A DNA stretch of 64,000 nucleotides from Protonemura montana (lineage: Eukaryota; Arthropoda; Insecta; Plecoptera; Nemouridae): the NCBI GenBank assembly GCA_947568835.1, contig OX387606.1:19129940-19193939 (forward strand), in the 5' to 3' direction. The notes beneath the pieces were generated by a model that saw only the letters and a list, made by a program, of their open reading frames with translations, ran no database searches and was not told the origin of the DNA. The position numbers were made by a program, and so were the translations under genes. This document shows, one piece after another, positions 22,826 to 61,629 of the stretch. Numbering within the stretch: the stretch's first letter is position 1; every line of letters begins with the position of its first letter.

Positions 22826-22947
22826 TATCGTTTGGTGTAGTAAAAGCCTTACGAAGCACTGATGACTCAAATCGCATGTCGTTAAAATCAACGTAATCAA
22901 TCTTAACGATTTGCACAATTAAATTTGGGTGTACCTGAGGTCTCTTC

Positions 22948-23270: not shown

Positions 23271-23590
23271 AGATGTCAAAGTACATTGCAATATACTTTG
23301 CTTTATGTTGATTTTATCGTCATGCGAGTGAAGGCACTTATACTTTTTAACGCGTTTGAAACACCAAACGATATTTGAATACCTACACAAGAAACAAAAA
23401 AACACACACATACAAGTGATTTTTTTTCTGGGGTAATTGAAATTGAAGATTTTGCATGCCCTTGCTGCGCCAGGAGTTGGAAGCTGTGAAGGGATGTTAG
23501 AATCATGTGTGTCCTGCTGCTCTCTAGTTCCTGTTTGACTAGACCGGGTGGCTGAAGGAGCAAGTCGCCACCAAACACGTCAGTTAGGAT

Positions 23591-35483: not shown

Positions 35484-35871
35484 TTAGTGGTGTAGGTTTT
35501 TTGGTATATATAAACTATTCAACTTCGGCCAAAAATTCCGATCAAATGTCTACCAATGCATTGATGAATTTCAATCAAAAATAATTTCGACTCCATCAAT
35601 ATACAACTTCAATATTTTCCATCTTCGTAAAACATTAAAACTATTTTCGGATTTTTGTTATTCGGTTAACTCATCCTGGAACTTTCGCCATGGATGAGCA
35701 AACATAAACTAACTACCATCCAGCATAACAATGCGCCCAAATGAAGAACAGTATTTGAACTGTTCGACTTATATGAGTCTAGGCCTGTGACCCGCACTAC
35801 CCAAGTAATTCGAATCCTGCCGCCAGCGGCGAAGCACATTATTGCACTTCACCACACAGGCCTCGACTGTA

Positions 35872-36427
35872 TGCAGCGTATCGCCGCCGGGCCTCCATGA
35901 CATCACATAGGAATGTTGGATCGGGTTGAAGTAATTTAGTTTGATATTTTTGTTGCAATCAGCGCTACCTGTTGGCAGAATCTGGCATACACTCTGGACA
36001 GCGACTCGTGCTTGGCGCTGCCAAAAAGCTACCTGGACGGGATTTGAACGCACGTCCTTTGTTCAGAGAGCAAGCACGTTAACCACAGCCCCACTGCGGT
36101 GTTCTAGTAACGGCGCGGAAATAAAACAACTAAAGCTCGAAGAATCAAATGCAGCGTATCGCCGCCGGGCCTCCATGACATCACATAGGAATGTTGGATC
36201 GGGTTGAAGTAATTTAGTTTGATATTTTTGTTGCAATCAGCGCTACCTGTTGGCAGAATCTGGCATACACTCTGGACAGCGACTCGTGCTTGGCGCTGCC
36301 AAAAAGCTACCTGGACGGGATTTGAACGCACGTCCTTTGTTCAGAGAGCAAGCACGTTAACCACAGCCCCACTGCGGTGTTCTAGTAACGGCGCGGAAAT
36401 AAAACAACTAAAGCTCGAAGAATCAAA
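35872..36427. repeat. Direct tandem duplication, 278-bp period, two copies
   Basis: Unit 1 is 35,872-36,149 and unit 2 is 36,150-36,427. They look identical over their full length, so the duplication is recent (or is an assembly collapse/expansion point). Each unit carries a tRNA-like segment on the minus strand (36,028-36,101 and 36,306-36,379) with A-box-like GTGGTTAACGTGC and B-box-like GTGCGTTCAAATCCC. Confidence 0.93.
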
Positions 36428-39946: not shown

Positions 39947-41585
39947 TTAAACAGCGATGGAATAGTCTGACTGATTATTAGCGGTGGGTCGCGACCACAG
40001 CGATGATCTCAGACCGAGTTTGAGTTTTTTCAATGTATCGATGTCGCATTCGGCCTCGCTGAGCTCTGGGCGGTCCGACTGGTCCCTCTGTCTACCAGAA
40101 AAGGTCGTCTCAGCTGCGTTGGTGGCCGGCCTAAGCGTAGATCGTCCCGGCGCAAGCCATCTGTAATACCGCTTTTAAAGTTTTAAAATTTTAGCCGACT
40201 TCTATTAACGATTCTTGCATTTTTTTTTGTCTGTGAGTAGGTGCTGATTTTTGTTAATAGCTGTGTGGTTAGAAGTCTTGAGCTATGCATGTCTGGTTAT
40301 GAGTTGTTTACCTTGACCTGCCTCGTCGAGGAAGAGTTTTTTGTTCTGACATTGGCGAGATGTCAGATGATGTGCTGGATTGTGCGCCGTGGTAGATGAA
40401 ATCTGGAATTTGAACTCAATCAATTTCGGGTGCTTTCACTTCATTAAAAACTAATTGTAAAGTGCTTGTCTCCAATCAGGTACTTTACTAAGCAGGCTAA
40501 GAAAAACCTGACGGAATGGAATAGGAAGACAGTAATAAATGATTGAAATAAGCTTAAAATGATGAGATGATTAAGATAACGTTAGAAGAGTTCGTCCACT
40601 TACTGCTTTTCATTTTGCTTGTTTCCAGATGATTTGATGACTCCGTTCTGCTCGAAGTCAACTGGTCTGGGTCCGAGTCGGATTCGTCAGAGTCGACATC
40701 TGTTTTCCTGCTGCTGCGACGGCGCCCCCTGCCCTTGATTCCTTGCTGTTTGGAGGACAGAAATTTCTAAATTGATCAATGTAGACGGTACTATGCTGGA
40801 TTTCTTGCTGTAAATATTTCCCTAGGGGTGTTCGGGCAATACGTACTCCGCTAGGAGGTGGCGAGGCACATCCTTCGGTGATCGCCTGCTCGTGGTACAT
40901 GAAGCTATGGAGGAGGGTGTTGTTAGGGTCTCCTCCGGGGCCGGCCAACTGGAATGTTGCATACGGGGATATGTCTTCTGAAGTTTCTGTAAGAGAAGAC
41001 ATCTTTTCTGAATTATTTCTATTTAAATTAGTGTAGATTGTGTGGTTGCTTGGTTGAAGCTAATTGCTTGTTGAAGGCATTTTGATCAGGGAACATATAA
41101 AAGTTATTTTAGACTCACGTCTACTTTATCTAACCTTAGCACTAGTTAAAAAAAATTAAAACAGAGTGTTTTAATACCAAGTAAAGCACCTTATTTTCCT
41201 AACTTTTCACAACTTATGCCTGTTGCTTCATCAAGGGTGAACGCAGGTGTTTTTCTTACTACCCTTGATGAAGTAACAGTCTTAAGTTGCAAAGCATCGG
41301 GAAAATGAGTAGAAAACAAATTTTCTTTTATTTTATTTTTTATTTTTTCCAGCATGAAAGCTATGTGCACTTGTTCGAGTGCAGTGGAATACCTCTACCA
41401 GCTTAATGAGACAGCAAGTATTAACAAAAACTGTTTGCTTTGAGCTTGATTATAAAAATAAAGCAAGTAAGTACCTGGTATTTTATCTTGCAATGATACT
41501 TTGTGAATTGTAGCATAGTATCGTTCTCTCTGCGTCTCGGCGTTCTGTTGGTTATCAAGTGTTTCTTTCACGAGCCGAGATTTTT
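39947..41585 (-). CDS. Dscam2: Dscam2 cytoplasmic tail exons
   Basis: Five exons: 41585-41475 (NAETQRERYYATIHKVS), 40986-40847 (SEDISPYATFQL, EGCASPPPS), 40745-40604 (GRGRRRSSRKTDVDSDESDS), 40402-40312 (STSSDISPMSEQKTLPRRGR) and 40160-39947 (SEAECDIDTLKKLKLGLRSS, ending SDYSIAV). The first four match the Drosophila Dscam2 tail closely. Visible signals are tyrosines in YYATI and PYATF contexts (possible SH2/ITIM-like sites), proline runs (possible SH3 sites), a very basic stretch, and a C-terminal SIAV that fits a PDZ-binding end. The long repetitive tail extension of the fly protein is absent. Confidence 0.92.
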
Positions 41586-44500
41586 CTGCAAGAACCGATA
41601 CAAATAATTTTTAATATTACTCATGAGTCATGACAATAAAACATGCGATATTTAACTTCTTTACTTTGTGGCAACTTGGTAAGTGAATGTTTTATGGATA
41701 AGGATGACCCACGACCGTCGGATCTAAATCTAGATATATTTTTCGAAGACAAGCACGACTTACTTCGTCTCCAGCAGACGAGGATCGCTAGACACGAAGC
41801 GAACAGTGCCAGCATTGCGCCAGCAAGTGGCACGATGACCTTCAGGTCCATGTAGAATGGTGCGGTGGTGTGACCCAGCGTTGCCAGCTCGGGAGGTGGT
41901 TGCTCCCCCTCCCTGGTCAGCGTGATGGCCGTGTACTCGGCGGACGAGGACCCAGCGATGTTGTGCGCCTCCACCTTGAGATGGTACACTGACGACGGGC
42001 TCAGGCCAGAGATGGTGAAACGCCGCTGCGGCTTCAGAGCGTTGGACACTGGAACCGAGCGGGAGCAGAGTTTTATAAAACGTGATCACACGTAAAATGG
42101 CTAACTGGTAAATGTACCATAACACATGAGAAAATTCAATGTATAATGGTCATAAATGGCTTGAGCAAACCGAATGCAAAATTACATTTTTCTCGAGTGA
42201 AAATGTCTGAAAATGTTAAAGCCTTTAAAAAGCTATAAAGTTTTGTAAACTGAGTTATATGGAGAAGACAGTGAAAAATGAGCTATATTTTCGATTCCTG
42301 GCATTGAGAGCTAGATTGAAAATATCATCTCTCTTAAGTACGCTCTTGTACCAATTTGACCGATGTCAAATCCTAAAATTGTGCCTCCTCTGCCGCCTGT
42401 ATAATCGCATCCATTGGCTAAGATAAGCTCGTTTCATTCTGATACACTTTCTTATCAATCCAAGCTTTAACCATCTCTTAAATTTACCGCTGCAGCACCG
42501 TTGGCTTACGCTAATAAACACAAGGTAAAAACGAAAGTTACCCAACGTCCAGTGCGCGCTGTTGCTGGGGCGATATTGAAGCACAAAGTAGGTGAGTGGA
42601 CAGCCATTATCCGGCCAGACGTGCAAACGCAGCAAGATGGATGTGGAGTTCGGCGTGAAGAATGCGGCGGCCGTCGGGATGCCAGGCGCCTGGCCTTGCG
42701 TGCGCACAGACAGCGTCGCGCTCGCGGGCGATGCGCCGATCTTGTTTAGTGCCAAAAGGTACAGATGGTATGTGCTCCCTGAAGAAAGGCAGGTGAAGGG
42801 TTAGAACGCTTCGTTGCTGTGGTCGCCCAAATGTAGGCATTTCATTTCATTTGAATTTCTTTCATAATGCTGTCATGGGAAACAATAAATACACCGAATA
42901 AACCTTATCTTCTCCTTATCTTCTTTTTGTTTTTGACCTCTTCTTGTAAATGATTGCAACATCTCCTTAAAACTGTAGAAATGCGATGAAACGAGATTCC
43001 CTGCATTCGTTCCATTGTGAGCACTAGGAAAATATCATCTGGGGTACATTTTTTTGAGAGGGTGTTCATAATATAAGATAATCTGCTTTTTGCGTGCAAT
43101 CGCCATTGAATTATGACTGAAACTGCTAATCTTTTCAGTGTTTGGAGAAATGCTAGTGCCACGACATGATCAAAGGATTGATTCTCGACCACGGCCCACG
43201 AACGCATTCAAAGTTAAGTTGTGTGTAGTTGAAGCATAAATTAGAGCAGGTCCAATGACCTCCTGCGTCGATAAATAACAGGACAGACAACATTTTCTGT
43301 CGCCAAAAATTAGACAGGTGAGTCTTGCTTACCACAAAAGAGCCCCCTGAGCTCGTGGCTGGTGGCGCGCCTTGTGAGATGCAGCTCGTCCAGGTCGCCG
43401 TGCGTCCGCCGGAAGTTGAGGGTGAACCCCGTGAGAGGTGCGTTGCCGCGGTCCCCGGCCTTCCAGTGCAGAAGTATGCTGCTGCTGGTGGCGCTCGTCA
43501 CGTAAAGAACCGGCGCCGCGGGGGGCCCTGGGATCAGGGGGAAGTTTTCAACTTGACCGTCGCTTGAGTTGGAGGAACCAGTCTTTGAAACCGACGCTTG
43601 GCAACACTGACAGCAAGTGATGAACTTGTGATGAGCTTTGTGACAAGAACGGTTGGCGTGTTGAAAACACCGGTTCCCGTGCGAGCACAGAAGTTTTTCA
43701 ATACTGCGCTGGATTAGGTATTGGAGAGGTGACCACTGACCATCGGGTGCATGACCAATTATTTTCGAGAGGGAGGCCAGAATGATTGAAGTTAGTTCAA
43801 CAACTTCACTCGCCTTGCTTATCAACCTCCCAATAGCATAGGTTTGTGGAGGAATCCTGCTGTTCGTGCTACACCGTCATTCGGACGAATAATTGAGAAA
43901 GGTACCCTGGTGCTCTTTGATTCGAGCAAGCCACGTGCCGGCACCTTGTTTGTTCCCTTCTAGCCTAGGCTAAGATCATCATCATGATCACCACCCACAC
44001 AATCACCTGGGTCATAAAATATTAAACAGTGCGCCATTAAACACCACTTATCAGTGAAGCTTACTTTGTTTGGTGCTTTTCAGTAGAAGTGGCAACAGAC
44101 TGGGACATACTTGAAATTTCAAAGCTGAATGTAGATTTTTAAATTTGTTTTGGAGGTACCGGGTTTTTAGCTCTGCGGGCTGCGTTCAGGGGTTCAAAAC
44201 GCACCTTTTTCATTTAGCTATGCCATTAAACCAGCGCCACAGGATCCGTAGTACAGGGATGGCAATTTACCTTGCACGACGAGCTGGTACATGATCCTGT
44301 CCGACCCCTGGGAATTTTCCACGTGACAGGAGTAGTTCCCGGCGTGCGTTTGCTGCAACCCCGACAACACGAGTTCACCAGACTCCATCAGGTGGGCGTA
44401 GTGTGGGCTACCGGTGCGGATCGGTTGGTCGCCCACCACCCACTCGCGTCGCGTTAGAGGCTGACCGACGGCCACGCACGGCAGGGTGACCGTCGAACGC

Positions 44501-47500
44501 CAAGGACGAACCACGAACCCGCCAAAGGACGCGATGCGACCGGGAACTGCAGGGTCGACAAAGACTTAGGGGTTGGATACGACCAGTTGATGGGCATCTC
44601 TGGGAGTAATTTTCAACATTTGAACTTAAAAAAGGGTGGGTGTTGTCTCATGTACACCTTGCTGGCAGTCGGATTGCAAAAATCAATTTTAATATTTATG
44701 GTTTGAAACTTTTAAGATTATATCTATATCAGTGGCTGTCAAACTTCACAATTGGTCATGTAATTGAAGACGGCATTGGTTGTGAGCATGGGTTGTGAGT
44801 ATGGGTTGTGAGTGGGTTGTGGCCTCTGGCCTCTGGTACCCTGATCTGACCTGATCTTAAACTGTCAAACAGTCAAACTAACCTCGGGTGGACGGAACTT
44901 GAGCGACTACACCCGAGCTGTCGCCCTCTCCAACGCGGGTGGACGCAGTCACGTAGAACTGGTATTCCACCTGCTGCTGCAAGTTCTTCACTTCGAAGCT
45001 CTGGTGCTGACTGGGAAGGTTACGCTTCCCGTGCGTGATTTCGTCTCTGCCGTCGATCACTCTGCACATGGTCAGAATGTTTAGTAGAGTCAGAACTGCT
45101 GACAAAGGTTTTTGAAGTAGTTCTTGGAGAGACTTTCAAACCTTACCTAGTGTATAAAATGTATTTCGTAATGATGCCGTTGAGCTGTGTTGGAGGAAGC
45201 CACGATACAAGAAGCGATTGGGATGAACTGACCACGACTTTAATGTCAGCTGGCGGCCCGGGAACTAAGTGCACCGAGAAAGAATGTCATTGAAGTGGCA
45301 AGTCTTGGAATTTTCCACGTGCAGAGGTGCTTGGGGTGGTAAACTTACCATCTTCCTCGGTGTTACAGTTGACAGGCTTGGCGCCGAGGCCTTCGCCGAT
45401 GCGTGTGAATGCAAAAACTTGAACGCTGTAGTTTGTGAAGCGTCGCAGGCCCGTGATGACCGACGTCAACGCAGTTGTCTTCCTCGTGTCAACGTCATCG
45501 CTCTCTGTAACGATACAGCATACATGTAAGTGTATGCTAAAAAACACACAATGCTTGTAAGTCTGCGATTAGGGGTACACATTCCTCCACAGGGAACCAC
45601 ATCATGAGCCAGAGAGTCGAGCGCGAGACACTTGCCTTGCAGGATGTCTTCAGCGACCGGCTCGTAGTAAATCTTGTATCCCTGTATGATGCCGTTAGAG
45701 TGGACTGTCGGAGGCGGCTGCCAGCTGACTTGGAGCGACTGAGAAGTCAGCCCAGTGCAACGGACGTCTTCGGGAGGCGAACTGGGGACTAAACAACGAC
45801 AACGACGTCAGCGACATATTTTTGCTACATTTTCTTTAGTACAAAGGGTATTATCGAACTGGGATTTTAATTTTAATAGTTTTAAATTAAAAATTAAAGC
45901 TATTTTTGCACTTTTTTTGATAATATCACTCCAGTGGATGGTCGAGGAGGCTGCCACCGATACTTTCCCTGATGGCAGTGGAATATCAATAAGAAATACA
46001 TTGAGTTGACTGCATTTTAGTAGTTTTTATCCACCGCAAGTAAAAACTACAGTCAGAAATTTGGCTCATAGAATTGACTGTTGCAAGTGTTCAACTGAGA
46101 GTTGCGTCCCTCCTTGATTGAAAGTGTGACTGTCCTCACCATCTTCTAGAGTTTGCGCGGTGGCCGGCTCGGAGAGTGGCCCTGGGCCGACCTGGTTAAA
46201 CGCCTGCACCACGACCAGGTAGCGAGTGAACTTTGACAGGTCGCCCATCAACATTTCGGCGCCGCCGTCGTCGCCGTCACCGTTGATCGACGTGAAGTTG
46301 TAGCTAGACATGCCCGAGCTGTGCGCTCAGCCAAACAAGCAGCTATCAATTGCAACTCGTTAAATTGAGTTAGAACTTTTATAATATGAGATGACATTTT
46401 GAAACACTTCTTTATTTTACATGAAGTGTCGATGGGCCTGTACAATTTTTTCTTTATTTCGTTTTGCAACAAGACTACGTTTTTTTTTTTATTTCTACGC
46501 TCCAACTACCCCGTACTTTTTATTTGATTTCATACACTCGAAAGTTTCGAGTGTAGACATGAGTAGCTTCGAATAGATAATCTATAGTTTTACGTTTTTC
46601 CATTTGAAGTTACTCCCATTGATTTCAGTGGCTTTATTATATTCTGTTTCAAGCAGAACTTTTCAGAGAAATTCATTCCGATGCAATGGAGTTTTCATAA
46701 CTTCACAAAGCACACGAAAACAAGTATCCTCGCCGCAAAATATCGTTTCCTCTCCGTCGTCCAGCTTCATCTCCACGACGTACTCACGTAGTATCCCTGA
46801 ACCCCACGTTGTACCCCTGGATCTCTCCGTGCCGCAGCTCTGAAATGGGGGGCGCCCATGTGACCAGCAGCTCGGTGGACGAGACTGGGCGCACGGATAG
46901 GTTGGTTGGGGGTCCCGCCGGTCTCTGGGGCTCTGTCTTCAACGTTAGCTCGGGGCTGGGGCTGCTCCGGCCCGCGGGGCCCTCGGCCACCACACGGAGG
47001 ATGTACCGCGTAGCCGGCTTCAGGTCTTCGATCAGTGTTGTGTGCTGAGGGCCGGTCACCTCGTGTTGCTGCCAGGAGTCTGGCTCTGTGTTGAGGATAG
47101 AAAGAAAGCGTTTAGCTTCAAAGTCGCACCGTTTGAAACGGAAAAAGGCATACCACTTATTTTCTTAAGTCTGGCTCTACAATATTGTTGACATTTTGCT
47201 TTGTTTCTTCCAAGGAAATGTTGCCTTATTCTTAATAGTCCTAACATCTCTATTTGATATTATTTAGATTTTCACAACAATTACTTATTTTCCACATTTT
47301 AGAAAGTTTTCAATAAAGTGGTCCAGAATATAAGAGCCAAGCGCTCAGATATTTCAGCCCGGGTTCTTGTTCTTGGCTTTTGATGCCAGTTCTGTATGCT
47401 TATCTGGTCAGCATAGATGTTGCATGGACTTTGGTCCAAGACTAAAAAGTCCTTGCCCGAGTGATGTGACGAAGGTCTCGGGGGAAATTTCCCTTAGTCC

Positions 47501-50500
47501 CCTTTGCGCCTGCCAATCCGAACAATTCCAGAGATTCGTCGTCGTTCGATGCTAGTTTAGAGTAATTCGACACAGCAATACAGATGGGCCAAGGCCGACA
47601 TTGTGAAGCTGGTATTCGAATAAGTTTCTCTCTTTCCAAGTTGTAATGGCTTTTGAAAGTTTTATTTGACTTACTGTCCCCTTCGCGATACTGGACGATG
47701 TACTTGGTGACTTCGCTACCGTCGCTCAACTGGTGTTGCCACTGGATATTAACAGATCTGCTGCTAATCATCACCGACTCCAAGCGGTTCGGATTCTGAG
47801 GAGGCTCTGAAAGTTTAAGATAAAACCTCTCAACAAACTTTTCGTCGCAAAAATCCTTTTTCAACAGATTTGCGATTTCAATCTAAAAATTACCTTGCAC
47901 TAGAAGTTGCACCAGCTGTTGGTCTCTGCCGTAGAGGTTATTGGCTTGACAGAAGTACGTGCCAGTGTCTCCAGCTTCCGCTCCAGCCAACTGCAGTTCG
48001 GCGCTAACGCCTTCAGGAGTCAAATCTTGCTTCACCGAAACCCTGTTGACCATTATACAAGAATTTATTTTGTATTCTGTGAGATGCAACATTATGTATG
48101 CATTGCACTTGCATCAACGAGCGTTTGTTGTGTAAGAATTTTATATAAAATCGGAAACATCATAAACAACAGACAGAAGTAGAATACATTATGCAAGGAG
48201 ATCTGTTCTTGTAGCTCAAACTAAAAGCACCAACAGAGCAATAAGACAACCAAGACCAGAAACACCGACAGTCTTGTGTTGTTTGTTGCAACTTGCCTGT
48301 AATTTGAGGCCGGCGTCAGCTCCAGTTTGCCGCTTCTCAGCCAGAGCACGCTGATGGGCTTGTCGCCGTTGACGTCGCAACGAAGGGTGGCGGTATCCCC
48401 TTTTTTGACAGTAACCACGCGCGACGGTGCCGAGAAGTACGGCGAGGCTGGAAGATGAGGGGGAAATTCGGGGCTTAACGAATACTTAGCAAACGTTTAA
48501 ACGGGTGTTAAAAGCAGCTTCGTACGTCACCTGGCTCTATGGTGTAAAAAAGGCACACGACAACTAGAAACAAAACTATTGGCATCCAATTGATTTTGAT
48601 TACGAATTATTCGAAGCACAAATCTCTTATTCTTTACCGTTATTTAACTCTTTCTATTGCAGTCAGTTTGATTTCAACTGCTCAAAAGTTGGGGTAGGCC
48701 TTTCCGTGAATGTTCCTTCGCTTTTTAACTAAACCTTTCTCTCCTGCCCAAGCCCCTAAACCCAGCCCATAGAACAGAAAACACGTATCTTCCACTAAAT
48801 CAATATGGTTAAGATTTTCCTTATCTCTACAGCGGCTGAAAAATATTCTAACATCATCAGAGATTCCCTCTTTAGCCCCTAAACGCAGCCCGTAAAACAT
48901 AAAACCCGGCACTTCCACCACATTTTGATACTACTAAGCTAGGGTTGATATATTGATTCCGTCCTAATTTCCCCTGTCTCTACAACAGCAGATTTTTTTT
49001 TTAATTATCAGAGTTTTACTTCGTTAGCCCCTGGACGCAGCCCGTAGTGCAATTGCGGCACCTCCACTAAATATTAAATTGCTCGCAAAATTGACGCAGG
49101 GTTCGTAAATTTCCGTTTAAGAGAATCCGAGGACATTTGGCCGCATATCGAACTGACCACTAGACACAATTTATAATGGAAACACGATAGTATTTTCATC
49201 ACATCTAGAAAATGCAATTACCACACGTCACCACAGCAAGTATAGATTTTCATGGAAAATTTCAGATTAAAATTAGCTGCCATATATCTATAATGTTAAC
49301 ATGAAAATGAAGTAAAAATGATCAACCACCCTTGAATCCTTCACTAATTAATATATTTATAAAATACAACGCATATTTGGTTAAGCATTGATACACGATC
49401 ATGAAGCAGCTTATTGCTACAACGATCAAACTGACACTTTATTAATGTAAATAAATCGTGTATTATATTGGTCGTAAGTACTTACAGTTGACTTTGAGCT
49501 GGATCACCTTGCCGATCCCGGTGCCGATTCCGTTGTTGGCCTGGCAAAGGTAGAAACCCTCGCGGTCTTCCTTGACGTTCTGCAGTAGCAGCGATCCGTT
49601 GCTCAGCAGCTTCGTGTAGATTCGCTCCCGGATTTCCTCATAGTCTCCGGATTTGCTCCCTACATAATTGCACAGAATGAGCCCAAGCACTGCAAGCGCT
49701 ACCTACCCGATAAATTATTCGTGAGGTGGGGAAATGGACTTTTCTACCTGCAGCCTTCTTCCAAGTGACCGTCGGCTGCGGCACTCCTTGTGCCTGGCAA
49801 TGGAGGAGCACGTGACGGTTTCGTTCGACGCTAACGTCTCGGGGTTCGACGACCCAACGGGGAGGCACTGTACAGAAAAGCGGTGTCCTTCTACAAGTCT
49901 GTCAAGAACCAAACAGGGCGAAGGGTTTGACCAAAATAAAGATGCCTTTTGCATCAGTCAACCAATTAAAAGGTGCGCTAGAATAATATTTGTGCGATAC
50001 ATTTTTGGCTTGTAGGGCAATGAAAAAAATATTTTATGTGTGCGTGAACGGTCAGAAAACAAAGTTAACTCTGGACATCATATTTGTAACCAGATGGCGA
50101 TGTTGTTTAACCATACAAAATTAATTGGAAAACGGGGATATTTACATTAGTGGTCGCTTCCAACATGGTGTTCAAATATGTACATAGAGACAGATGGAAC
50201 TACTGTACGTAATCACGCTGTAAGCAAAAACTCTGAATTATATAAATGAATGGGGTAAAAATATTTAAAAAATTAAATCTAGTGAGTAATATTACATGGT
50301 TTAGCTAACTACGTTTTTTTGGGGTGTTTGTAAGTGGGAAAGAAGAGTTGAGAGAGTGAAATGTTTAAGTTATGTGATAGTGGGAGGTACACAGCAAGAA
50401 GCAGGCAGGTTGCAGAAAAGTTTGAAAAGTAAGTAGAACAAAAATAGGTGCAAAAATTACCTTTTTTAACTCGCAATCGACCGAAATACAGTAAAATTAT

Positions 50501-53500
50501 CTCACAGGTGCCAAAGCAACGAAAACTTTTAAACACACATACGTAACTCGGGCTGCGTTTGGAAAAGTCATCTGCTACCGCGACAGATTTTTGGAGAGCA
50601 TTGTGTCTTAAAATTCGAGATCCAAGAACTTCTAACGCCTCACGAGGGCCCAACAATCTGCCATCAGTTTAACACGAATTAAAATATCACTACCTTGCTT
50701 TAAGTGTCAACTATGACCGAATCTAAAAACACACAACTTTATCAGTCCGGTATATAGACTCCTTTATGGCTACTTGGCTTTCCATAATTCAAAAAATAAA
50801 GCTAAAAAACCGTTAGTTCCTGTCCTACTGTCATATAAACGTGGTGTTTAGCCCCTAATGTGGCCATTGACCCCAAAGCAGCCGATGACTTTCCCGACGG
50901 CGAGGCCATAGTGTGTCCACGGTACCTTTCACCTGGAGCTTAGCGGTGAGGCGTACCTCTGCCGCTGGGTTAGCGGCGACGCAAGTGTAATCGCCCGAGT
51001 GGGCCGAGGCAAGACTAGAAATGCTCAGCAGGCTAGAATAAAGATCAAGAGCGGACACGTTTGCGCCCAGCGCGTGGCCCATCGGCTGGCCATCCTTCAG
51101 CCAGGTGATTGAGATGGGGGGATCGCCCCTGCTGACACCACACACCGTTCGCGTTCGCATGCCTTCAGAAAGCCCCTCTTGGAAGGAAAAAGGCTCAATT
51201 ATAGGAGGAACTGGAAAGAATTCAAAAAGAGAGAAGAATGTACAAACACGAGAGATAGATCGTAAGAGAGTTTTAAGAGTAATTTATAATATAAATGTAT
51301 ATTATAAATGTAATATAATAAAAAAACACTAGAGATAACAAGAAAGAGAGAGAGAAAAAAAGCAAGGCGTATTGTAGCTGGTGTAAGTTTGATTCTTTTT
51401 TGGTGTTAGTTTTTGGAGGCTATTTTTACCGTTGACCACGAGCTGCTGCGAGTGCGCGACTTCTGCCGCCGAGTTACGAGCTACACATGAATAGTTTCCG
51501 TTGTGATCTGGAGATAAACTTTCAATCAAGAGAATGCTATTGAATTGATCGACTTGAGTGATGGCGACGCGATGGGCGGGGTCCAGCGAGCGTCCGTCCT
51601 TGAGCCAGGTCATCGAGAGGGGCAGATCGCCCTTGGTCACCGAGCATGTCAGACTCGCACGCTCCCCCACGTGCTGGGTTCGGGTCGGAGAGAACGGGTT
51701 TAATTTGGGGGGAACTGAAACGCACAAGAACAGTGTCACAAGACAGCAAGGCTGGCTGAAGATGGAGTAGTTGTTGAGTTTTATGCGGATACGAAGTCGG
51801 CTGAGACAGACAGCCAACAAGGAGTAGGACACGAGTGAAATATCAGGGAAATTTTAAAGTTCGTTCGGAAAGGCGAGCTCTTTTTCTCTCTCTGTTACTA
51901 TGCTGTACCATACATGTTTTTAACTTTGTTAGGCAAAGTAATGCACTCATTTGGTTAATTTATATAATTTTCCTATTTTCATTTTCATTTTCATTTTCAT
52001 TGTCATATTCATATTTTACTTTAAATGCTATGTACACAAAAACGTTGATTCATATTTTTTGAATTGTTTTTCATAAATAATGAAAAGAAAGAGTTTCCAT
52101 TACGTGAAACGTATAATCTACTATTGTAACCAGATTTAATTTCAAACATGGTGCATATCCCACCCTCTGCCGGGCATGAACCAATCGTTACTCTAGCCCA
52201 AGCTTTCCAAGAAAGCGTTGATTTTTGAAAGCGTTACGAACCTATGACGGCGACCTCTCCGCTGCGCCTGGCACTGTGCCCCTGTTTGTTTCTTGCCGAA
52301 CACGTGTAGACCCCAGCATCAGTCGCTTTCTGTACCGGACTGATGGTTAAGGTGCCATCGGCAAGCACCTTCTGGCGGAGATCATCTGGAAGCTCGCGAC
52401 CACCTGCAGATCACGTGGCACGTACATTCATACTGGTTTTGGGACGTTTTGTTGCGGGCAAGCGATCACTTCGAGAGTAGCCGGCACTTCACGTTTAGTA
52501 TATTTTAGTGTAATTTTAAGGCTGTTTTACAAAAATAAAGGAGGGAACTTCGATATCAGTTAAACTCCGGGAAAGTTTTTCGTGTTTTATGATCATTTAT
52601 AGGTTACTAGCTATGAGACCGGCTTATCTCTTTCATAGCCCTTAACCTATCAGTCAGTAAAATTAGAAGAATTTAAATTGACTCTCTTGTGATCAATAAG
52701 AATTTAGGCTACCTTTTACCTTTTGAATCACAAAGTTGCGCTAGTTTAAAAAATATAAAATGTGTTTGGTCACTTAATTGCTCCAGTTCATTATGACAGG
52801 TTAAAAAATTACCTTCACTAAATAAATGTTTACCACACAACTAGCAATTTTTTAAATATTTTCCCCACACATTCTCCAGCCTCCGCTTCAAGGCAGTTTA
52901 ATATTACTATGTTTCCTTCTAGCTGTATTATTTTTTATTAGAAAATATTTATCTCCGTTTTTCTTTCTTTTCTTATAACTGTCTTCAGTGAAAAGGTGTA
53001 TTTGATTTTCTATTGCGTCCACGTCAAGTCGATACAACATTTTATCGACAGCTCGATGAGGGTATGCCGCTGGCAGCTTCATTTAGACCAATTTATTGAG
53101 CGATCTCGGCACTCACTTCTCTCCCAGCGAATCTCTTCTATCGGAAAACCAGCGACAGGACACTTTAGCTGCAGCTCCTCGCCAGCAACGGCCGTCACCT
53201 TGGGTATCAGTCGAATGTAGGGCGACCCTAAATCACAGGACAAAGTCGTTAATCACGTGGGTCTACAAGGTGAAATTAAATCAGTCCCAATGGAGGTGTG
53301 AAGAGAGTCGAATGTGAAATAGAATGCGTTCCATGATTGGAGGCGTCGGGATCTTCATTTGAACAGAAACGAACTCTTGAAACCGTTGTGAAGATAAAGG
53401 TATTGCAGCCTAATTTACTAAAAATGAAGAAAAAGCGTATCTTCCAACTAAAAAAAAAATTAAAAATACGTGTTAAAATTTATGCTACAAAAGCTTTTAG

Positions 53501-56500
53501 TTTATCAGTGAAATTTATGCAAATTTTGCCTCAATTACGCGGACTGGCACTTTGCATATTTTTTTAAAGGGATAAAAATCTGATTCAATATTACTTGTCA
53601 GGACTTGAAAGGCCATGATGTATGACCAAAAAAAGAGACTGTACTATTTTTTTTTTTCAAAGCTCTATGCAGATTAAACAATGAACTATTTTACAGCAAG
53701 CGAAGTACTGGATAGCCCGAGAACTCCGTAACACACAGGTTATGCTACCCCACGACTCGTTCCGGAGGTCGATCCACCTGATTGGTCACCATCTCTTGAG
53801 GTGACACACCAATAAATGGTTCAACTGTCACGGACAAGATTTCGACATTATCGTTCTAGGTTCAAGAACGCTTTACTTAGCTAAAGAAAGTCTCATTTTC
53901 TAGAGTGGTTTGCGAATTACACGCGTCTCCAAGACCGTGTCGATGAACTAACTGCATTAAATTCCCCTCAAAATTACCCAAATTGGTCGCCATGCTCGAA
54001 AACTTAATATACTGTTACCATAGATCACAACACAAAAGTGTTATCACAATCATTTGAACTTTTAAGTGGTTACCGTAAACGTTGAGCCTAGCCGAGTGTG
54101 CCGTACGACCTGCACGGTTGTCAGCCACGCACGCGTACTCGCCCCCGTCCTCCACGGTCACGTGGCTTACGTTCACGTGGCTGATCACGTCGCCGTGCAC
54201 GGTAACATACTGACCAATCACGAATCTGTGAAGACATGACGCAAGACTGTAGTACTTCTAGAAGAATTGTCACCGCTCAAAATGGCCTAGCGACGCTAAC
54301 CCATAAGACATGATAGGTTATTGTTGCAAGATGGCCGGCTGTCGGCCATTTTTATTGCTCGTTCTTATCTTGAAAGAACTGTACGAGTAGTACTATCTAA
54401 ACTAGTCTTTGCTGGTCCAAGTAAATAAAATAAAAAATCACAAACTCACAAACGCACACAAAAGTATTGAATATACAGGGAAATTTTGCTTCTACTACGG
54501 GAAGCATGAATAAAAGATTGTAAAGATTGAAAAATATATTGGAAACAGTTCTGCAACCTGCTCTTATTTTTTAATTGTAGAAGACAATTCTTCCGACATG
54601 GATGTTGATGAGGCAAGTTTGCAAAATCTCAATCGGTGAGTTTTCTAGAGGCTTGACATTTTGTCATTTGTAAACATTGTGTAAAAATGCCGCATTTTTC
54701 TACAACTTTCCACAAAAAAAAACGCATATTCGTTTTAAAAAGCTTTCAAGTTATTGGTCCCAAATCATTCTTTTTTCACGAATCGGCGGAGATTTTTTCC
54801 ATATTCCTCCGGGTATGCCAGACGAAGCGAGGACAGGAAGTGAAGGAGATAGAGAGCACGTCTTTGACATGTCGTCAGTCATTTTACATCGTTCACCTAT
54901 ACGTGTGCAGAGTCGCGCTGCCCCGGACCGCTGGGATGACAAGGGATAGACTGGGATAACGGGATGGCTGGAGGCTGACAATGTGCACGTCGCTAATGCA
55001 CTGTCGTCCTTGCCCCGTCGACAATTTCGGGAATTGACATTTCGTAAAGAGCGACCGGAAAGATTTATTATTTACATATATGGCGAGTTACGAAAAGAAA
55101 TATGGAGACGGCCATGCATTCACTGAAAGTCCCTACCTTCTTCGAGAACTATTGTTGGCGAACGCGATCAGCGAACAGTTGATCGATTTTGGGAGACCAG
55201 CGGTCATCGATTTTGAGCCTGGCATTACATTTTATTTGATTCGCGGTGATGGCGCACAATGTATGTTGTTTTAGTCCGGCTTGATTTGTGATTTTGTCCG
55301 GGACACGGCATGCAGCAGCCATTGATTGCAAATTGATACGACCAACACATTCTACGGCGCTGTGCGAAATTGGAATGCCTTCGCGTATAAAGAATTTGTT
55401 CAAACAGTTGGTTTTCGTTTGACTTTCAAATAAATTATTTTTTACAGAAACAAAAAAAAAAGATCAAAGCAACATTAAAGCACAGTTTTTCCAGCAAAAA
55501 CAAGTTGGATAAATCAGTACGCGTTTCAGCTTGAGCTGGATTTATGAGGCACTTCTATTAAAATTATACACAATTATATTTTAAGCGACTAGCATCTCGT
55601 GTATATTACAGAAGTGGTATCCCAAACCGAATTCACGGTCCTACAAGCTGAGCACGATAGAAAGAGAACTGGAGAGAGGAGTAGCTGTGGCAACCATGCG
55701 CAACTAACATCGCAATAGAACGTACATTCTGTCAGAGAGATGTGAATAGATTCTCCCAGTTCTGGCTAGGTAACGAGACAACTATTGTGTTTCGCATTAT
55801 TCTTCATATCAGTGGAGCTTGCAGATTGAATTCGACCATCCGTAAACAGAGATATTTTATGCTACACGTCATTCGCTAACATCCTTTCAATTTTCAATTC
55901 AATACGTTACTCGCGATGTCGTCCCTCTTTCTTCCAGATTATTCGTGTGTAGCATGCTGCTGATGAATTCAGGTGGCTGCAGAATGAATGGTGCAGCTGA
56001 ACATTTTATTTGACACAAAAAGTACTTGTACCTCGACGGTTGAAACATCCAGACTAAATTATATATGAAAAGAATGTTTCACACAAAAGAAGGAATCTTC
56101 TTTTTGTGCTACCGAATATTTTTAGTGCACACAATCTCGCTTTATATCTAGCGCAAATTCTTTCAAAGAATAGTCAACATCCCAGGACTGGGCCATCGAG
56201 TCAAGTTAATCGCTGTCTCTTGAGTTTTGATACAATTGAAGTCACGTTGTGAAATTGCAAACTAGCGGTCAACCAAACTAATAGGCTCCCGGGGAAGGTT
56301 TCTCTATAATAAGGGATGAATTCTTCACAGACCTGCCGTTGGTAGGCAGCGGGAAGCCATCCAGCATCCATCGGATCTGCGGCGTCGGGTTCCCAGCAGC
56401 ACTGCATTTTAGCGAGACCGCTGGCCCCGGCTGGAGGGTCTGCTCTATAAAGCTGTACAACAGCACGGGCGGTGCATCTACACAGGAAAACACAGTAACA

Positions 56501-59500
56501 CATCCTATTAGTGACTTAATTGGGGGGTGAGAAAGAAAAACAAATACAGATACTTATCCATAAATGGCAATCACATTTCTAAGCAGCATATTTGGAGCCG
56601 AAAAATCAGGGTTTGGTAGTGTATCTGTAATTTTTTGTACGTTAAAAGTTCTTTACTGATTTGAGAGAAGTTCTTACCTTCTTCTGATGAAAAGGTAAAG
56701 GTTTTATAATGCACGCGCATATCGCAATGTAAAACAATAGCCCTGCTTTAACCCTATTTAGTTCACGCTTTAAATTGTGATATAAAGCATTACTGGAGCC
56801 AGTTGAACCCTATTACTGAAGCAAGACGGTAATAAGATTCGTATATAGCTATACACTCCTTGTTAGGTTCGCGAGGTCTTCACGTTAAAACGCTCGCCCC
56901 ACCTCCGAAAAGTAGCTCCATTATCTCGCCTATATTGCGACTCTGGGAAAAGAGTTTTTGTCTCTTATTTCTCGTTTTACTTAATTGCGTCGCGTTATTC
57001 ACAGATGGTTGGTATTGTCTCAGCTTACTCGGGCGTACAATGTCGATCATTTCACTTATAAACTCGGCGCACGGGAATGTTTCGCTTCAACTTCGTCGGC
57101 TGCGAGTTGAATTGTAAGGCGCGCTATTTCGCTCCTCGCTCAACTCGTGGCCTGCCAATTTAAACGAAACATTACGTTGCCTGTAATTAAGTCAACGATG
57201 AAGTGCGTATCGGCAGTTCGCCGAGTTCGGGTTGCTTTATCATAAATAAGCAATTTTATCTTCGCAGTTGTGTTTCGGTATAGGTGGAGATCCTAGGAGA
57301 ATACTAGGATATAGGAGGATATAGGTGGAGGTTGGGTTCACAGCTAATAACTATTCACAAACTATCACCAATGACATCTAAATAGTTCTATTTTCTTAAA
57401 AAATATCGTTGAAAAGACATGTACTTTTAATAAACGTTCTATACATTCTATGTGTATCTACTGTAGCTGCAGCAACGATGTAATGCTCAGCCTCGGAGTT
57501 TAAAAAATATCTCCTATCGGCAATCACGATGAAAGCAAAAATGCGTTTGACTTGATCACAAAAGCCTATCGTCGTTTTACTCTGTAGAGATATTTTAATT
57601 TACTTTACGCTTGAGTGAAGCTCTCTTCGATAACGTTTTCTTTTACATGAGCTCTTTCATGACTTAAGAAAAGTCTGCACGCCTGATTAGAGATGCTCTG
57701 CAATCTCGACTCGAGACCTCCGAAGGTTGCGCCTTTCCAGACTTGAATAAATTATTATGTCGTTATTTATAATGAGATCTAGAATCTGCAAGTTTCGAGG
57801 GCACCCGCTTATTTTTATTTCAAAGTGCTGTTGATCTTTGTGGCTGAAAGGAACCAACTTAACAGTGTTTAAATAATATTTTCATTATGTTAGCCCTGAT
57901 TTTACTTTTTTTAAATAATGTTCACAGAGTTCGTAGAGAGCCTGTATAGGTAGCGCCTCGAGACCGGTGATAATTTTATTTCTACTCTTCGAAAGCACGC
58001 CTTCCTCCATTGATGAGGATAAGTGAAACCTTTGATCAGGCAGGAATCGAATTAGCATTTTGCCAGCCTGCAACGCGGACATAAAAGCTTTCTCTTCTCA
58101 TTAGACCCACGTCCCTGGAAGAGTTTCAGTTAAAGTAGTTTGCCACCAAGTTTGTTCTACCAAATCCACGCAGCCGATGAAATCAAAGAATAAAAACCGC
58201 TTCGAAAGCTGTAATCATTATCAAGGTTAGTGTTACAGAGATTTTTCTCGATTTACTCGGTGAAAGTTTCACCCTCTTAGATTCGCGCGATCGCAAACAG
58301 AAAGTAAAAGAAAGCAACCACTTCAACTAAAAACTTTCCTTTCTTGGGATCAACGTGGAAACGCCAGGTTGAAAAGCATGCAGATAATTAGATCTTCGAT
58401 TTTACTGGCAGGTGTTGTTGGTGCGTTAACTTACCTTTGAAACAAAGCGACGACGACAAGCATTCCAATTACTTGTTTACTAACGCCCCAGCCAGCCCCT
58501 CTCCTTTATTTACCAGTATTTCACTCACCCCCAAGTTGTAGTTCCGCCGATCCCTGTGCAGTCTCGCCCTCTGCCCGTCGTACTAGACACTGGTACATGC
58601 CCCGGTCTTCTCGACCGACGTTCGTCAGGAAGAGCCGATCACCTGAACTTCGTCCTGATCCTGGCAGGACCCTCCCATCCTTGTGCCAGGTGATCATCAA
58701 AGGGGTACTGCTGTGATGCGAGGTAGACGTCTCTGTGCATCGGAACTCGGCACTACCACCTGCAAAGCATGACCTTGTAGAGGAACCTTTATGTCAAAGC
58801 TAAACATATGTTTATCTTGCTGAACTCAAACTGTGCTTTTTTACTGAGAGGCAAACGATTTTAACACATTTCTAGTTCGCCTCATCACTAATACTTGCCA
58901 CTCTGACGCGGGCAGCAACTAAGTGTTTTTGAAAGTGTGGTTTGGGCGTTAGAGTGCGTGGTCACTGGATTTGAAAGCACGGGCTGGACAATTACGGATG
59001 AAAATTATTGTAAAAGCCTTTGTTATAGAGAGAGAGCTGCTCTGCATGGATACAGGGGTAAAACCAAAAGCGCTTAAAAGCAGGAAAACAATCAAATTAT
59101 TGGTGGAGGTTGGATTAGGAAATGATAAACCGGCCGACCTCCTGTAACACTCTGATCTTTCAAAGAGAACTCTGTGTCCGATGTTGCGACCAGCTAAACC
59201 AAAATGAAATCAAAAGGAAACCATCGCCTTGTCAAGGTATCTAGGGGAGAAGTCGAACTCACCTAGGTGTACGCTGAGGAGCGCCGGAGTGACCTCCACG
59301 TGGAGGGGCGTTGAGACTACCAGACGCAGTTCGGCGCTCGCCTCGCCCCCTGCGTTGGAGGCCGAGCACCGGTACATGCCCGAGTCTTCGGGGGTGACCG
59401 CCTCGATGACCAGCACCGGACCCAGGATACGTGTCCGCGGCCCCGGCACCATGGTTAGCGACTCGGAGGCACTCGATTGGAGGTCGTACCATCTGTTCGG

Positions 59501-61629
59501 GAGAGAGAAGGATATCCTTCTAGTATTCCTGATGTCATCATACTCGCTTTCAAAAGTCACAAGTTTGACGAAATAAATGTCTTGATCCAAGAAGCTTGTG
59601 CCAATGGATTAACTCACTGGCGACTTTTAAAGTGTTGCAAAAATCAAACTGCTTTTTGTTTGGTTCCCTGAGTTAAATTTTCTTTTCAGCAAACCAAATT
59701 TTGTTTAAAGCTTGTGGCTGCTCTTCATATCTAGCACCTTTAGAATCTAGCGGCTTTTTCCTGGGCAAAATACAAACTGTTACATCAAAGCGCCCCTTTA
59801 AGAGACCATTTCAATTTGAAGTGAATTTGTAACAATTAAATAATCATTTCTAATTCCTACCCCTCTTCTGAAAGCAAACATAGGGCTCACTGCTTGTGAG
59901 AACTGTGTTGCCTGGGTTCTGCCGTGTTCTTGCGATAGCCAAATTGCACGATCAATTAGTAAAGTAGTCGGCAATTCTAGGGCAGACATGCTAGCATGGA
60001 TGTTGTACTATAGGATAGGCGGGCTGGTCGCGAGGGGCGGGGGTGGGTGGGAGGGACGAAGATTAAGCGCTGGTAAACCCGCGATATAACTTGCTAATCT
60101 TGCGAATATCATAGGAAAGTCAGTGTTCCAACTGAAATCACGTGACTGAATAATATGCGATGTCTCGAATGTGTGCTATATAGGCTGGGCACCTATATTT
60201 AGAAGGAATGCATGCATCTTAAGGTTGCTGCTTAGTGAAGATAGCCATACCAAGCATACAACCTCACTGCCTGCCACCATTTTAATCATTTTCTACTAAT
60301 GTAAAAACGGGTGGAAATCCGCTGCACGATGAATTGGAATGAAAGGGAAAGTTTCATTGCAGAAACTTGTGCCAGCGAGTTGCTCATGCTTCCACCACCG
60401 TATTGATAACTTGCATTCTGACATGGCACTCCAGGAGTCGGCTAGCTAGAGAGCCGTTAAGTTACAAAAACACATGTTTTGAAAACATGCTCTCAGTTTT
60501 TAATGACACATAACTTTCAAAATAATTAGATTTTAGCTGCACATCCAGACTTTGTGTTTACAGTTCTAAATTCACAGTTGATGAAAGCTAGAATTTTTAT
60601 CGTAGCTGTTTCAATTTTTTTGCAACCCATGCAATTATGAATGTTTGCGACTGCGATGGATTAGAGAGAACATTGACACAGCCTTTCCAGCCCTCATCCA
60701 CCCTCACCCACCCCACAGCAGCCACCCCTTTCTGTCTGTGCGTGACCCACTGCATGAATATTCATTGTGAAAGCTCGGCCGCTGCGAGAAATATAATTTA
60801 TAGCGTCAGGATTTTGTATTTCATACAGATTGTTCCGTTTTTTTATGCATTTTTGCTGGAATGGTAGAATTTAGTCCGTGTCAAAACTTAGATAAGGCCA
60901 TGTTTGAGGTTACAATAGTAATCTGTTAAATGTATTTTGTGTAATGTTGTCATTTTTACCCCAAAATGGCTCCCATTTAAAAGCCATGTATTTTCGTATT
61001 AAATGAATGTTCCAACAACATGTAGGGCGTGTTCAGTAGCACGTTCAGTGGCCTTTGCTCGTGGAAATGCCTCAATTTATTTATCTGACAAAACGTACAC
61101 TTTTATAGGTATGTAGATCAATGGATGTGTCACATTTGTGACATTGACAGAAAGCAATATGTCGCCAAAACACGATCACCAACGAAACATAAGCGATTGC
61201 ATTTTCTTAGTGATACCTAAATGTTGAAAAAAGTGCTTTTTCAGTTATAAAATACCAGCAACTATCATTTCAGTACTTGTTTTCACCAACATGACCAGTC
61301 ATATTGCAAGATATATGTGAAACCATTCTGTTAACGCCAGAAGGCAGCAAGCATTCGGGATGTATTGAGGTTCCAAAAGATCATACAGAAAAAAACAATA
61401 ACTTATGTATAAAATGAAAAGCACATTTTTTTCCTGTCCAGGGATTCTACGCAAATCAAACAAAACAAGGACTTTTTTTCTGAAGAGCATGTCATGATTG
61501 ACGAGACTCACTTGTAGTCAGGAGCCGGACATCCTTGTGAGATGCAAAGGAGGACGGCTCCTTCGTCCTGAGCGACGTGGACATTTCCGGTGTGCTCCAC
61601 GATCATTGGCGACACGATCCCTCTGTGCT
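39947..61629 (-). CDS. Dscam2: Dscam2-like Ig/fibronectin cell-recognition receptor, Ig3 to stop; 5' end off the window
   Basis: Exons in transcription order: 61629-61512, 59492-59263, 58759-58529, 56477-56333, 54225-54074, 53227-53117, 52403-52242, then alternative 51714-51430 or 51210-50926, 49867-49748, 49659-49486, 48447-48297, 48042-47894, 47806-47675, 47085-46788, 46318-46140, 45788-45636, 45504-45349, 45264-45147, 45061-44883, 44546-44271, 43527-43333, 42778-42542, 42048-41764, 41585-41475, 40986-40847, 40745-40604, 40402-40312, 40160-39947. All phases agree; about 1,640 residues with one Ig7. Order Ig3-Ig9, FN1-FN4, Ig10, FN5-FN6, membrane helix, cytoplasmic tail is diagnostic of Dscam. 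Segments such as VERNRHVLLHCQAQGVPQP, EPQRPAGPP and SEDISPYATFQL match Drosophila Dscam2 better than Dscam1. Dscam2 gives homophilic repulsion between neurites. Ig1-Ig2 and the start lie beyond 64,000. Confidence 0.95.
41192..41305. repeat. Second copy of the foldback repeat family
   Basis: In a Dscam2 intron (between 40986 and 41475). The left arm (CACAACTTATGCCTGTTGCT, then TCATCAAGGGT) and right arm (ACCCTTGATGAAGTAACAG, then TCTTAAGTTGCAAAG) are inverted copies, about 45 bp at roughly 80% identity with a 22-base loop. The ACCCTTGATGAAGTAACAG core is shared with the palindrome at 20,038-20,243. Confidence 0.65.
41764..43527 (-). CDS. Dscam2: Dscam2 exons for FN5, FN6 and the membrane helix
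   Basis: FN5: 43527-43333 (PAAPVLYVTSATSSSILLHW, SHELRGLFCG) into 42778-42542 (STYHLYLLALNKIGASPAS). FN6: the rest of 42778-42542 (WPDNGCPLTYFVLQYRP) into 42048-41764 (VSNALKPQRRFTISGL, VYHLKVEAHNIAGSS). The last exon then encodes a linker and one membrane helix, about VIVPLAGAMLALFASCLA plus ILVCW, stopped by basic residues RRKK across the next junction. This marks the outside-to-inside transition. Confidence 0.94.
43635..44047 (+). mobile_element. 5S rRNA-derived SINE, copy 2, in a Dscam2 intron
   Basis: Lies in the intron between the Ig10 exon (44271-44546) and the FN5 exon (43333-43527), antisense to Dscam2. The 5S-like head (GGCGTGTTGAAAACACCGGT, GGTGACCACTGACC) is more decayed than in copy 1, with AGTTAAG lost, but the body (TTGGTGCTCTTCGA-like block, GCCACGTGCCGGCACC) and the tail (CAGTGCGCCATTAAACACCAC) align throughout. 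Confidence 0.72.
44271..44546 (-). CDS. Dscam2: Dscam2 exon for Ig10
   Basis: One exon, phase 1-1: VPGRIASFGGFVVRPWRSTV, TLPCVAVGQP, then GNYSCHVENSQGSDR. An Ig domain placed between FN4 and FN5 is specific to the Dscam family. RPWRSTVTLPC is a strongly conserved Dscam2 segment. Confidence 0.94.
44883..47806 (-). CDS. Dscam2: Dscam2 exons for fibronectin type III domains 1-4
   Basis: FN1: 47806-47675 and the first part of 47085-46788. FN2: the rest of that exon (EPQRPAGPP, ELRHGEIQGYNVGF) and 46318-46140 (YLVVVQAFNQVGPGPLSEPA). FN3: 45788-45636 (SPPEDVRCTGLTSQSLQVSW, SNGIIQGYKIYY) and 45504-45349 (RKTTALTSVITGL, NYSVQVFAFTRIGEG). FN4: 45264-45147 (LNGIITKYILYTR) and 45061-44883 (EYQFYVTASTRVGEG). 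The intron after 45636 starts with GCAAGT, a second GC-AG intron, again demanded by phase and conservation. FN domains form the membrane-proximal stalk. Confidence 0.94.
47894..49867 (-). CDS. Dscam2: Dscam2 exons for Ig8 and Ig9
   Basis: Ig8: 49867-49748 (VPPRWVVEPRDVSVERNR, TVTWKKAAG) and 49659-49486 (NGSLLLQNVKEDREGFYLCQ, GIGTGIGKVIQLKVN). Ig9: 48447-48297 (VKKGDTATLRCDVNGDKP) and 48042-47894 (NYRVSVKQDLTPEGVSAELQ, TYFCQANNLYGRDQQLVQ). These are among the most conserved Dscam2 segments. The intron after 48297 begins GCAAGT instead of GT; phase and the conserved protein both require this site, so it is a GC-AG intron. Confidence 0.94.
48740..49085. repeat. Intronic tandem repeat, three diverged units
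   Basis: AGCCCCTAAACCCAGCCCAT, AGCCCCTAAACGCAGCCCGT and AGCCCCTGGACGCAGCCCGT start units at 48,751, 48,873 and 49,025 in the intron before the Ig9 exon. Each is followed by a C(A/T)TCCAC(T/C)A block and then TCTCTACA. The spacing is 122 and 152 bases. There is no coding meaning in the Dscam2 frame. Confidence 0.7.
50926..51210 (-). CDS. Dscam2: Dscam2 Ig7 exon B (downstream member of an exon pair)
   Basis: 285 nt, phase 1-1, one full Ig domain: VPPIIEPFSFQEG, TVCGVSRGDPPISITWLKDG, SGDYTCVAANPAAEV. Acceptor TTTCCAG, donor AAAG|GTACCG. It is clearly homologous to exon A (shared SR/TKGD-P-ITWLKDG core and AAEV end) but strongly diverged, so the duplication is old. Either exon joins in frame to Ig8 (VPPRWVVEPRDV). 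The intron between A and B is only 219 nt. Confidence 0.92.
51282..51309. promoter_or_regulatory. Stem-loop between the two Ig7 exons
   Basis: ATTTATAATATA - AATG - TATATTATAAAT forms a perfect 12-bp AT-only stem with a 4-base loop in the 219-nt intron separating Ig7 exons A and B. On the transcribed (minus) strand a CTCTCTCTCTTTCTTG polypyrimidine tract lies 5' of it at about 51,342-51,358. Either could affect the choice of exon, but AT-rich palindromes also arise by chance. Confidence 0.4.
51430..51714 (-). CDS. Dscam2: Dscam2 Ig7 exon A (upstream member of an exon pair)
   Basis: A complete Ig domain in one 285-nt exon, phase 1-1: VPPKLNPFSPTR (V completed by the upstream G), LTCSVTKGDLPLSMTWLKDG, GNYSCVARNSAAEV. 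Acceptor TTTCAG and donor ACG|GTAAAA. It lies between the Ig6 exon and Ig7 exon B. Exon B has the same length, phase and domain, so the two are probably mutually exclusive, as known for exons 10A/10B of Drosophila Dscam2, which also encode Ig7. Inclusion of both would also keep the frame and cannot be ruled out from sequence alone. Confidence 0.92.
51976..52010. repeat. (TTTTCA)n hexanucleotide repeat in the intron before Ig7 exon A
   Basis: About five near-perfect TTTTCA units. On the transcribed strand this is a GAAAAT-rich run roughly 260-300 bases upstream of the Ig7 exon A acceptor. Confidence 0.75.
52242..61629 (-). CDS. Dscam2: Dscam2 exons for Ig3-Ig6
   Basis: Ig3: 61629-61512 (VLLCISQGCPAPDYKW) and the first part of 59492-59263 (EDSGMYRCSASN). 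Ig4: the end of that exon (PALLSVHLG) plus 58759-58529 (AEFRCTET, DRGMYQCLVRR, AELQLG). Ig5: 56477-56333 (QTLQPGPAVSLKCSAAGNP) and 54225-54074 (RFVIGQYVTVHGDVISHVN, GEYACVADN). Ig6: 53227-53117 (LKCPVAGFPIEEIRWERS) and 52403-52242 (GVYTCSARNKQGHSARR). All are family-typical. The Ig5 donor at 56,333 (AG|GTCTGT) is weak but is the only one that fits the phase. The Ig3 first-half exon is single; no tandem alternative copies are seen around it. Confidence 0.92.

Follow-up and report, generated by a model that had tools for sequence, protein, structure and literature searches.

Two intact Ig7 exons of equal length and phase, probably used as alternatives, in a DSCAM-family gene of Protonemura montana

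In the window, namely the whole 64,000-nt stretch of Protonemura montana DNA analyzed here, an otherwise normal nerve-recognition gene of the DSCAM type was shown to carry two intact Ig7 exons of one length and one phase (hereafter exons A and B) between its Ig6 and Ig8 exons. We consider that A and B arose by tandem duplication of the Ig7 exon in a canonical Dscam gene and are used as alternatives, and place the probability of this reading at roughly 0.78. From the layout, the ten-Ig canon of Dscam proteins, and the precedent of Drosophila Dscam2 and Strigamia, we infer that A and B are used one at a time; each mature mRNA would take either A or B, and the two resulting receptors would differ in Ig7 only and presumably display isoform-specific binding.

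As listed in Table 1, A and B lay on the minus strand and, just as the initial annotation had stated, were adjacent and identical in length (285 nt) and phase (1-1). Each consisted of 2 nt, 94 codons, and 1 nt without any stop, encoded one complete Ig7 domain, and was bordered by an AG directly before and a GT directly after the exon. The joins from Ig6 to Ig8 via A alone and via B alone were both open, in agreement with the earlier claim that either exon connects the two domains in frame, and the join via A followed by B was open as well. Homology, equal length, equal phase, and adjacency, all of which are expected of a mutually exclusive pair, were found together in A and B. In a tblastn search of the window with A, B, and the Ig7 of Drosophila Dscam1, the only full-length Ig7 domains among the matches listed were A and B themselves, the remaining ones being weak, or partial to other Ig exons; among these matches, exactly two Ig7 exons of one phase thus lay between Ig6 and Ig8.

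Table 1. Positions of the Ig7 exon pair, the surrounding exons, and the candidate intronic helix arms.
Feature	Position in window	Strand	Properties
Ig7 exon A	51430..51714	(-)	285 nt, phase 1-1; AlphaFold2 mean pLDDT 87.2 (input alignment of two rows only); best 12 PDB chains Dscam/sDscam
Ig7 exon B	50926..51210	(-)	285 nt, phase 1-1; AlphaFold2 mean pLDDT 85.0 (input alignment of two rows only); best 12 PDB chains Dscam/sDscam
Intron between A and B	51211..51429	(-)	219 nt, 28% G+C
D element, candidate docking arm, intron between Ig6C and A	51877..51893	(-)	17 nt, GA-rich; 163-179 nt before exon A
S element, candidate selector arm, intron between A and B	51347..51363	(-)	CU-rich; pairs with D, encloses exon A
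Ig6 C-half exon, constant, precedes the pair	52242..52403	(-)	
Ig8 N-half exon, constant, follows the pair	49748..49867	(-)	
Seven exons Ig3N, Ig3C-Ig4, Ig4, Ig5N, Ig5C, Ig6N, Ig6C	52242..61629	(-)	
Single Ig3 N-half exon	61629-61512	(-)	sole one among the tblastn matches listed
Seventeen exons from Ig8N to the cytoplasmic part	40846..49867	(-)	Ig8, Ig9, FN1-4, Ig10, FN5-6, TM, two cytoplasmic exons

The homology between A and B (tblastn E 8e-22) excluded a chance likeness. In an ungapped comparison, 39 of 94 amino acids were identical, together with 53% of the nucleotides, and identities at codon positions 1, 2, and 3 were 59, 64, and 35%, respectively; the strong divergence described in the initial annotation was thereby substantiated. 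Such a codon-position pattern points to conservation at the protein level and not to a recent copy. Both exons scored above the Pfam gathering thresholds of Ig_3 and I-set, and retained the two Cys residues, Trp36, Tyr74, and the splice borders. In the PDB sequence search, the top whole-sequence match of either exon was a six-Ig titin chain, the score of which is a sum over six domains, and ranks 2-3 were taken by Drosophila Dscam1 (3dmk) and human DSCAM Ig7-9 (6zr7). The stretch of 3dmk matched by A and B was the Ig7 of Dscam1, from residue 619 on. Furthermore, when the AlphaFold2 models of A and B were submitted to Foldseek, the best 12 chains for each were all Dscam or sDscam entries (Table 1).

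By its domain content, the gene around the pair belongs to the DSCAM family, and from Ig3 through the tail its domains follow the canonical order. A hand-built model comprised 26 exons running from 61629 down to 40846, with 1495 codons and no stop when A alone was included; its low end is an arbitrary stop inside the last cytoplasmic exon, not a splice site, and its TM segment is a hydrophobic stretch judged by eye. Along this model, Pfam detected seven Ig stretches (Ig3-Ig9), four fn3 domains, one Ig (Ig10), and two further fn3 domains, in this order, the final fn3 being FN3_DSCAM-DSCAML_C with 125.7 bits against a cut-off of 39. No counterpart of the Ig1 and Ig2 N-half of Drosophila Dscam1 was detected above 61629 within the window, and the 5' part of the gene probably lies beyond it. 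Two introns of the hand-built model have GC donors (CAG/GCAAGT after Ig9N at 48296 and AAG/GCAAGT after FN3N at 45635, with the border at the slash), since the reading frame requires them. The intron between Ig8C and Ig9N (48741-49046) contained a short repeat with the core AGCCCCTAAACGCAGCCCGTA in three diverged copies, spaced by 123 and 152 nt. Two same-strand segments located in two Dscam introns, 44002-44220 and 48732-49258, gave a local pairing score of 75.5 in the random control mentioned below, and are possibly inverted repeat copies.

Since A followed by B is in frame and the 219-nt intron between them is long enough to be spliced, the exclusion of one exon by the other must come from regulation. 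Enforcement by the reading frame was ruled out by the open A-B join, and steric exclusion through a too-short intron is unlikely at this intron length. No U12-type borders were recognized by eye, the donors being GTAAAA and GTACCG. Weak donors were not supported as the cause either: the donor strengths of A and B were ordinary for the gene, and 10 of the 17 donors scored by U1 pairing energy were no stronger than that of B. Dscam2 is reportedly regulated by Muscleblind, to go by a 2019 title of Li and Millard. Enrichment of the Muscleblind-type motif YGCY was not seen here, its density in the flanking introns being 9.1-11.4/kb as compared with 0-22.7/kb over 17 introns, and this ordinary density bears only weakly on Muscleblind control in either direction.

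Meanwhile, the intron between A and B proved to be the most CU-rich of the 17 scored, with CTCT at 50/kb and TCTT at 32/kb (runner-up values, 16 and 16). Its S element forms with the D element a helix of 17 bp including one GU, which joins the introns on both sides of exon A. The local pairing score of D:S was 46 versus 24.1 ± 3.0 and was reached by none of 60 shuffles. In real-sequence controls, the same score was attained by one of 316 same-geometry region pairs and by 6 of 3923 random same-strand pairs. When flanking complementarity was compared over 16 internal exons with the flanks limited to 600 nt, exon A alone stood out with a z of 9.9, the other 15 ranging from -0.7 to 1.7. The pair probabilities of the D:S core were 0.94-1.00 in a 2656-nt fold. 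In addition, only three uninterrupted helices of at least 17 bp (arms separated by 60-1500 nt and no more than one GU) were counted on the minus strand of the 64 kb, of which D:S was the sole one in the gene and two were outside.

The signal was confined to this core. The D:S flanks beyond the 17 bp paired at chance level (score reached by 187 of 500 shuffles), and no signal was left in the introns upon removal of the core (57 of 100 shuffles). A second selector for D above chance was found in none of seven other stretches, including those before A and after B, and when the intron downstream of B was scored locally against either the intron upstream of A or the A-B intron, the result was at chance (21 of 30 shuffles in both cases). 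With regard to whole-region duplex energy, the up-mid and up-down combinations were each matched by 2 of 100 shuffles; the duplex energy of D was -37.0 with S and hardly higher, -36.9, with the strongest chance partner elsewhere in the window. A full docking-selector competition was therefore not what we saw at A/B, but a single strong pair, D:S.

In exclusive exon clusters as described in PMC6071210, the left intron pairs with an internal intron, and pairing beyond the first exon loops that exon out; for exon 9 of Coleoptera Dscam, a docking site upstream and selectors downstream of the variable exons have been described (PMC8042237). If the first-exon loop-out model (PMC6071210) is applied to D:S, the pairing would favor B. 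Namely, the GA-rich arm before A and the CU-rich arm after A would pair, so that exon A is looped out and B is brought beside Ig6; with the helix open, or with the CU tract covered by a protein, the acceptor of B would be passed over and A be used. We put forward the D:S helix as a lever of exon choice only tentatively, at somewhat less than even odds. It is narrowly probable that D:S reflects a GA tract and a CU tract that happen to complement each other, or that it serves a role other than exclusion, e.g., the formation of circular RNA from exon A. The low complexity of both arms, the unpaired flanks, and the single selector speak for this view. Against it stand the rarity of the helix in the real-sequence controls, its location precisely around one member of the duplicated pair, and the report that, in mutually exclusive clusters, it is the left intron that pairs with an internal one (PMC6071210).

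As for the name of the gene, the label 'Dscam2' in the initial annotation is an assumption, and should read 'Dscam with twin Ig7 exons'. We give even odds to the gene being, instead of Dscam2, a paralogue from a different Dscam clade or lineage, such as a myriapod-type Dscam whose Ig7 is duplicated. In the centipede Strigamia, 60-80 canonical Dscam paralogues are described, 40 of which have two to five Ig7 copies and single Ig2 and Ig3 (PMC4244043). In the same direction, Ig4-Ig6 are split here into more exons than the numbering of Drosophila Dscam1, in which Ig7 is exon 9, would allow, and Ig7 is given as exon 11 in Daphnia and exon 14 in Parhyale (PMC5111886).

Because A and B were each nearer to the Ig7 of human DSCAM (48 and 46% identity, respectively) than to each other (41%), the pair appears to be either old or fast-diverging, and the identities fit both; the ancient origin proposed in the initial annotation is one of these two readings. 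For the neighboring Ig8, the identities with human, Drosophila Dscam1, and sDscam were 39, 40, and 42%, respectively. In a 9-row tree, B joined scorpion sDscam Ig1 (76/84) and A the human domain (35/0), and neither placement was firm; a single clade of A and B was not rejected in this tree (p-AU 0.265), nor was it shown. In a 15-row tree, 9 of the 12 inner branches were open.

The alternative that some or all transcripts contain A and B one after the other, which would give an 11-Ig Dscam, was judged to be improbable. The two exons can indeed be joined in frame without a stop across an intron with ordinary borders, and the tripeptide VPP begins A, B, and Ig8 alike, so that the A-B junction resembles the B-Ig8 junction. 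However, an 11-Ig protein would be unlike the 10-Ig Dscams described in PMC5775551, the Dscam classes described there and in PMC4835542 having at most 10 Ig domains, and in both Drosophila Dscam2 and Strigamia the tandem Ig7 exons are reported to be alternatives (PMC3364881, PMC4244043). That only one of the exons is in use, constitutively, and the other is a relic is very improbable: both are open over 94 codons with their Ig hallmarks and splice borders kept, codon position 3 has fallen to 35% identity while positions 1-2 stand at 59-64%, and confident Ig7 folds were predicted for both.

According to PMC10154414, the ABED face self-pairs in Dscam1 Ig7 and sDscam Ig1, and a glycan motif on strand F, shielding the CFG face, is present in all compared sDscam alpha Ig1 isoforms. 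With the strands taken from the predicted models, exon A was found to have an N-glycan motif, N73-Y-S, on strand F, whereas exon B has D73 instead and, as its only motif, N50-V-S on strand D. An alignment of eight Ig7-type domains showed the F-strand motif in all but B and a single Drosophila variant, thus in six, and the D-strand motif in B alone. Judging from the alternation along the strand, N50 of B probably points out of the ABED face. At the outward ABED positions, A and B were identical in 1 of 10 residues versus 38 of 84 elsewhere (Fisher 0.031), which agrees with the reading of two isoforms; an ABED divergence peculiar to A/B was nevertheless rejected, as other Ig7 pairs were similarly low (e.g., A-human, 1 of 10). 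It may be imagined, as an unlikely extension, that the exon switch goes beyond a choice between two self-binding specificities: A would retain the F-strand motif, which in sDscam leaves the ABED face free to self-pair, whereas B would cover that homophilic face with a sugar and leave the CFG face exposed, Ig7 self-recognition would be turned off or redirected to another partner, and the single intronic helix around A would act as the lever. If the glycan motif of B truly lies on the homophilic face, the splice switch would alter whether Ig7 self-binds at all, and not only with whom it is matched.

Several other elements were noted in the window. Pieces of other genes comprised an ATG13 domain (15167-15706, plus strand), a SET domain (19027-19836, minus strand), and an Ercc1/Rad10 binding domain (26936-27322, minus strand). 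The minus-strand Ig-like pieces at 149-382 and 2975-3430, for which the Pfam Ig scores were below the curated cut-offs, belong to another receptor gene, which we take, as an impression only, to be VEGFR/PVR-like. A perfect tandem duplication at 35871-36426 consisted of two 278-nt copies arranged head to tail with 100% identity. A long near-perfect inverted repeat at 20038-20243, which forms a helix of 57 bp when read on the minus strand and of 73 bp on the plus strand, looks like the end pair of a mobile element. A further inverted repeat at 22822-23377 included a 17-bp helix (22822-22838 with 23377-23361) and gave the best same-geometry pairing score, 77.5, near 22896/23303. Neither Rfam at the gathering score nor ARAGORN returned any match or gene in the window. 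A pattern search with the Ig8 C-half exon gave 189 pattern matches in microbial contigs and 10 in viral contigs, none of which was confirmed in either; such collections say little.

The layout itself is already known from Drosophila Dscam2 and the Strigamia Dscam genes, and the present observation is real and biologically plausible. New, in a modest sense, are the candidate single-helix lever and the predicted shift of the glycan motif of B onto the homophilic face. Switches between two Ig7 exons are found repeatedly among the Dscam genes of arthropods, but how one exon is chosen exclusively when a cluster has only two is understood less well than for the large Dscam1 arrays. A compact pair with one candidate helix would offer a small test case of whether a duplicated exon and one stem arm are enough to start exclusive splicing.

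Among the known systems, Drosophila Dscam2 has two alternative Ig7 exons, giving isoforms A and B (PMC3364881), which are described as binding homophilically in an isoform-specific manner, with neurons typically expressing one of them (PMC3364881, PMC11292952). The gene described here is likewise a canonical Dscam and, among the tblastn matches listed, has precisely two Ig7 exons, placed between those of Ig6 and Ig8; it differs in that no Muscleblind counterpart was visible from the ordinary YGCY density, and in that its exon B moves the N-glycan motif. For the duplicated Ig7 exons of Strigamia maritima, transcripts suggest mutually exclusive use (PMC4244043, PMC5465998). As in those paralogues, Ig7 is duplicated here (there in 2-5 copies) and Ig3 is not, whereas duplication there concerns 40 of 60-80 paralogues and a single gene was seen here, with Ig2 not found in the window. 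With exon 9 of Dscam1/Dscam-hv, the gene has in common that one exon with alternatives encodes Ig7 and, with D:S as a candidate here, long-range intronic pairing (PMC8042237). In contrast to Dscam1/Dscam-hv, it has two Ig7 copies instead of dozens and, among the tblastn matches listed, no Ig3 N-half array; with two Ig7 and one Ig3 N-half in the window among these matches, and Ig2 not found in it, the initial statement that large Dscam1-style arrays are not seen held true, and membership in Dscam-hv was rejected for want of large Ig3 or Ig7 arrays in the window among the same matches. Finally, the Ig1 of chelicerate sDscam is a homologue of Ig7, i.e., the same domain, and was nearest to exon B in the best tree, weakly (76/84). 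Unlike sDscam, which is described as being without Ig1-6 and as using 5' cassettes with promoters (PMC4835542), the present gene is canonical and has Ig3-Ig6 exons upstream of Ig7 in one open frame, by which membership in sDscam was likewise rejected.
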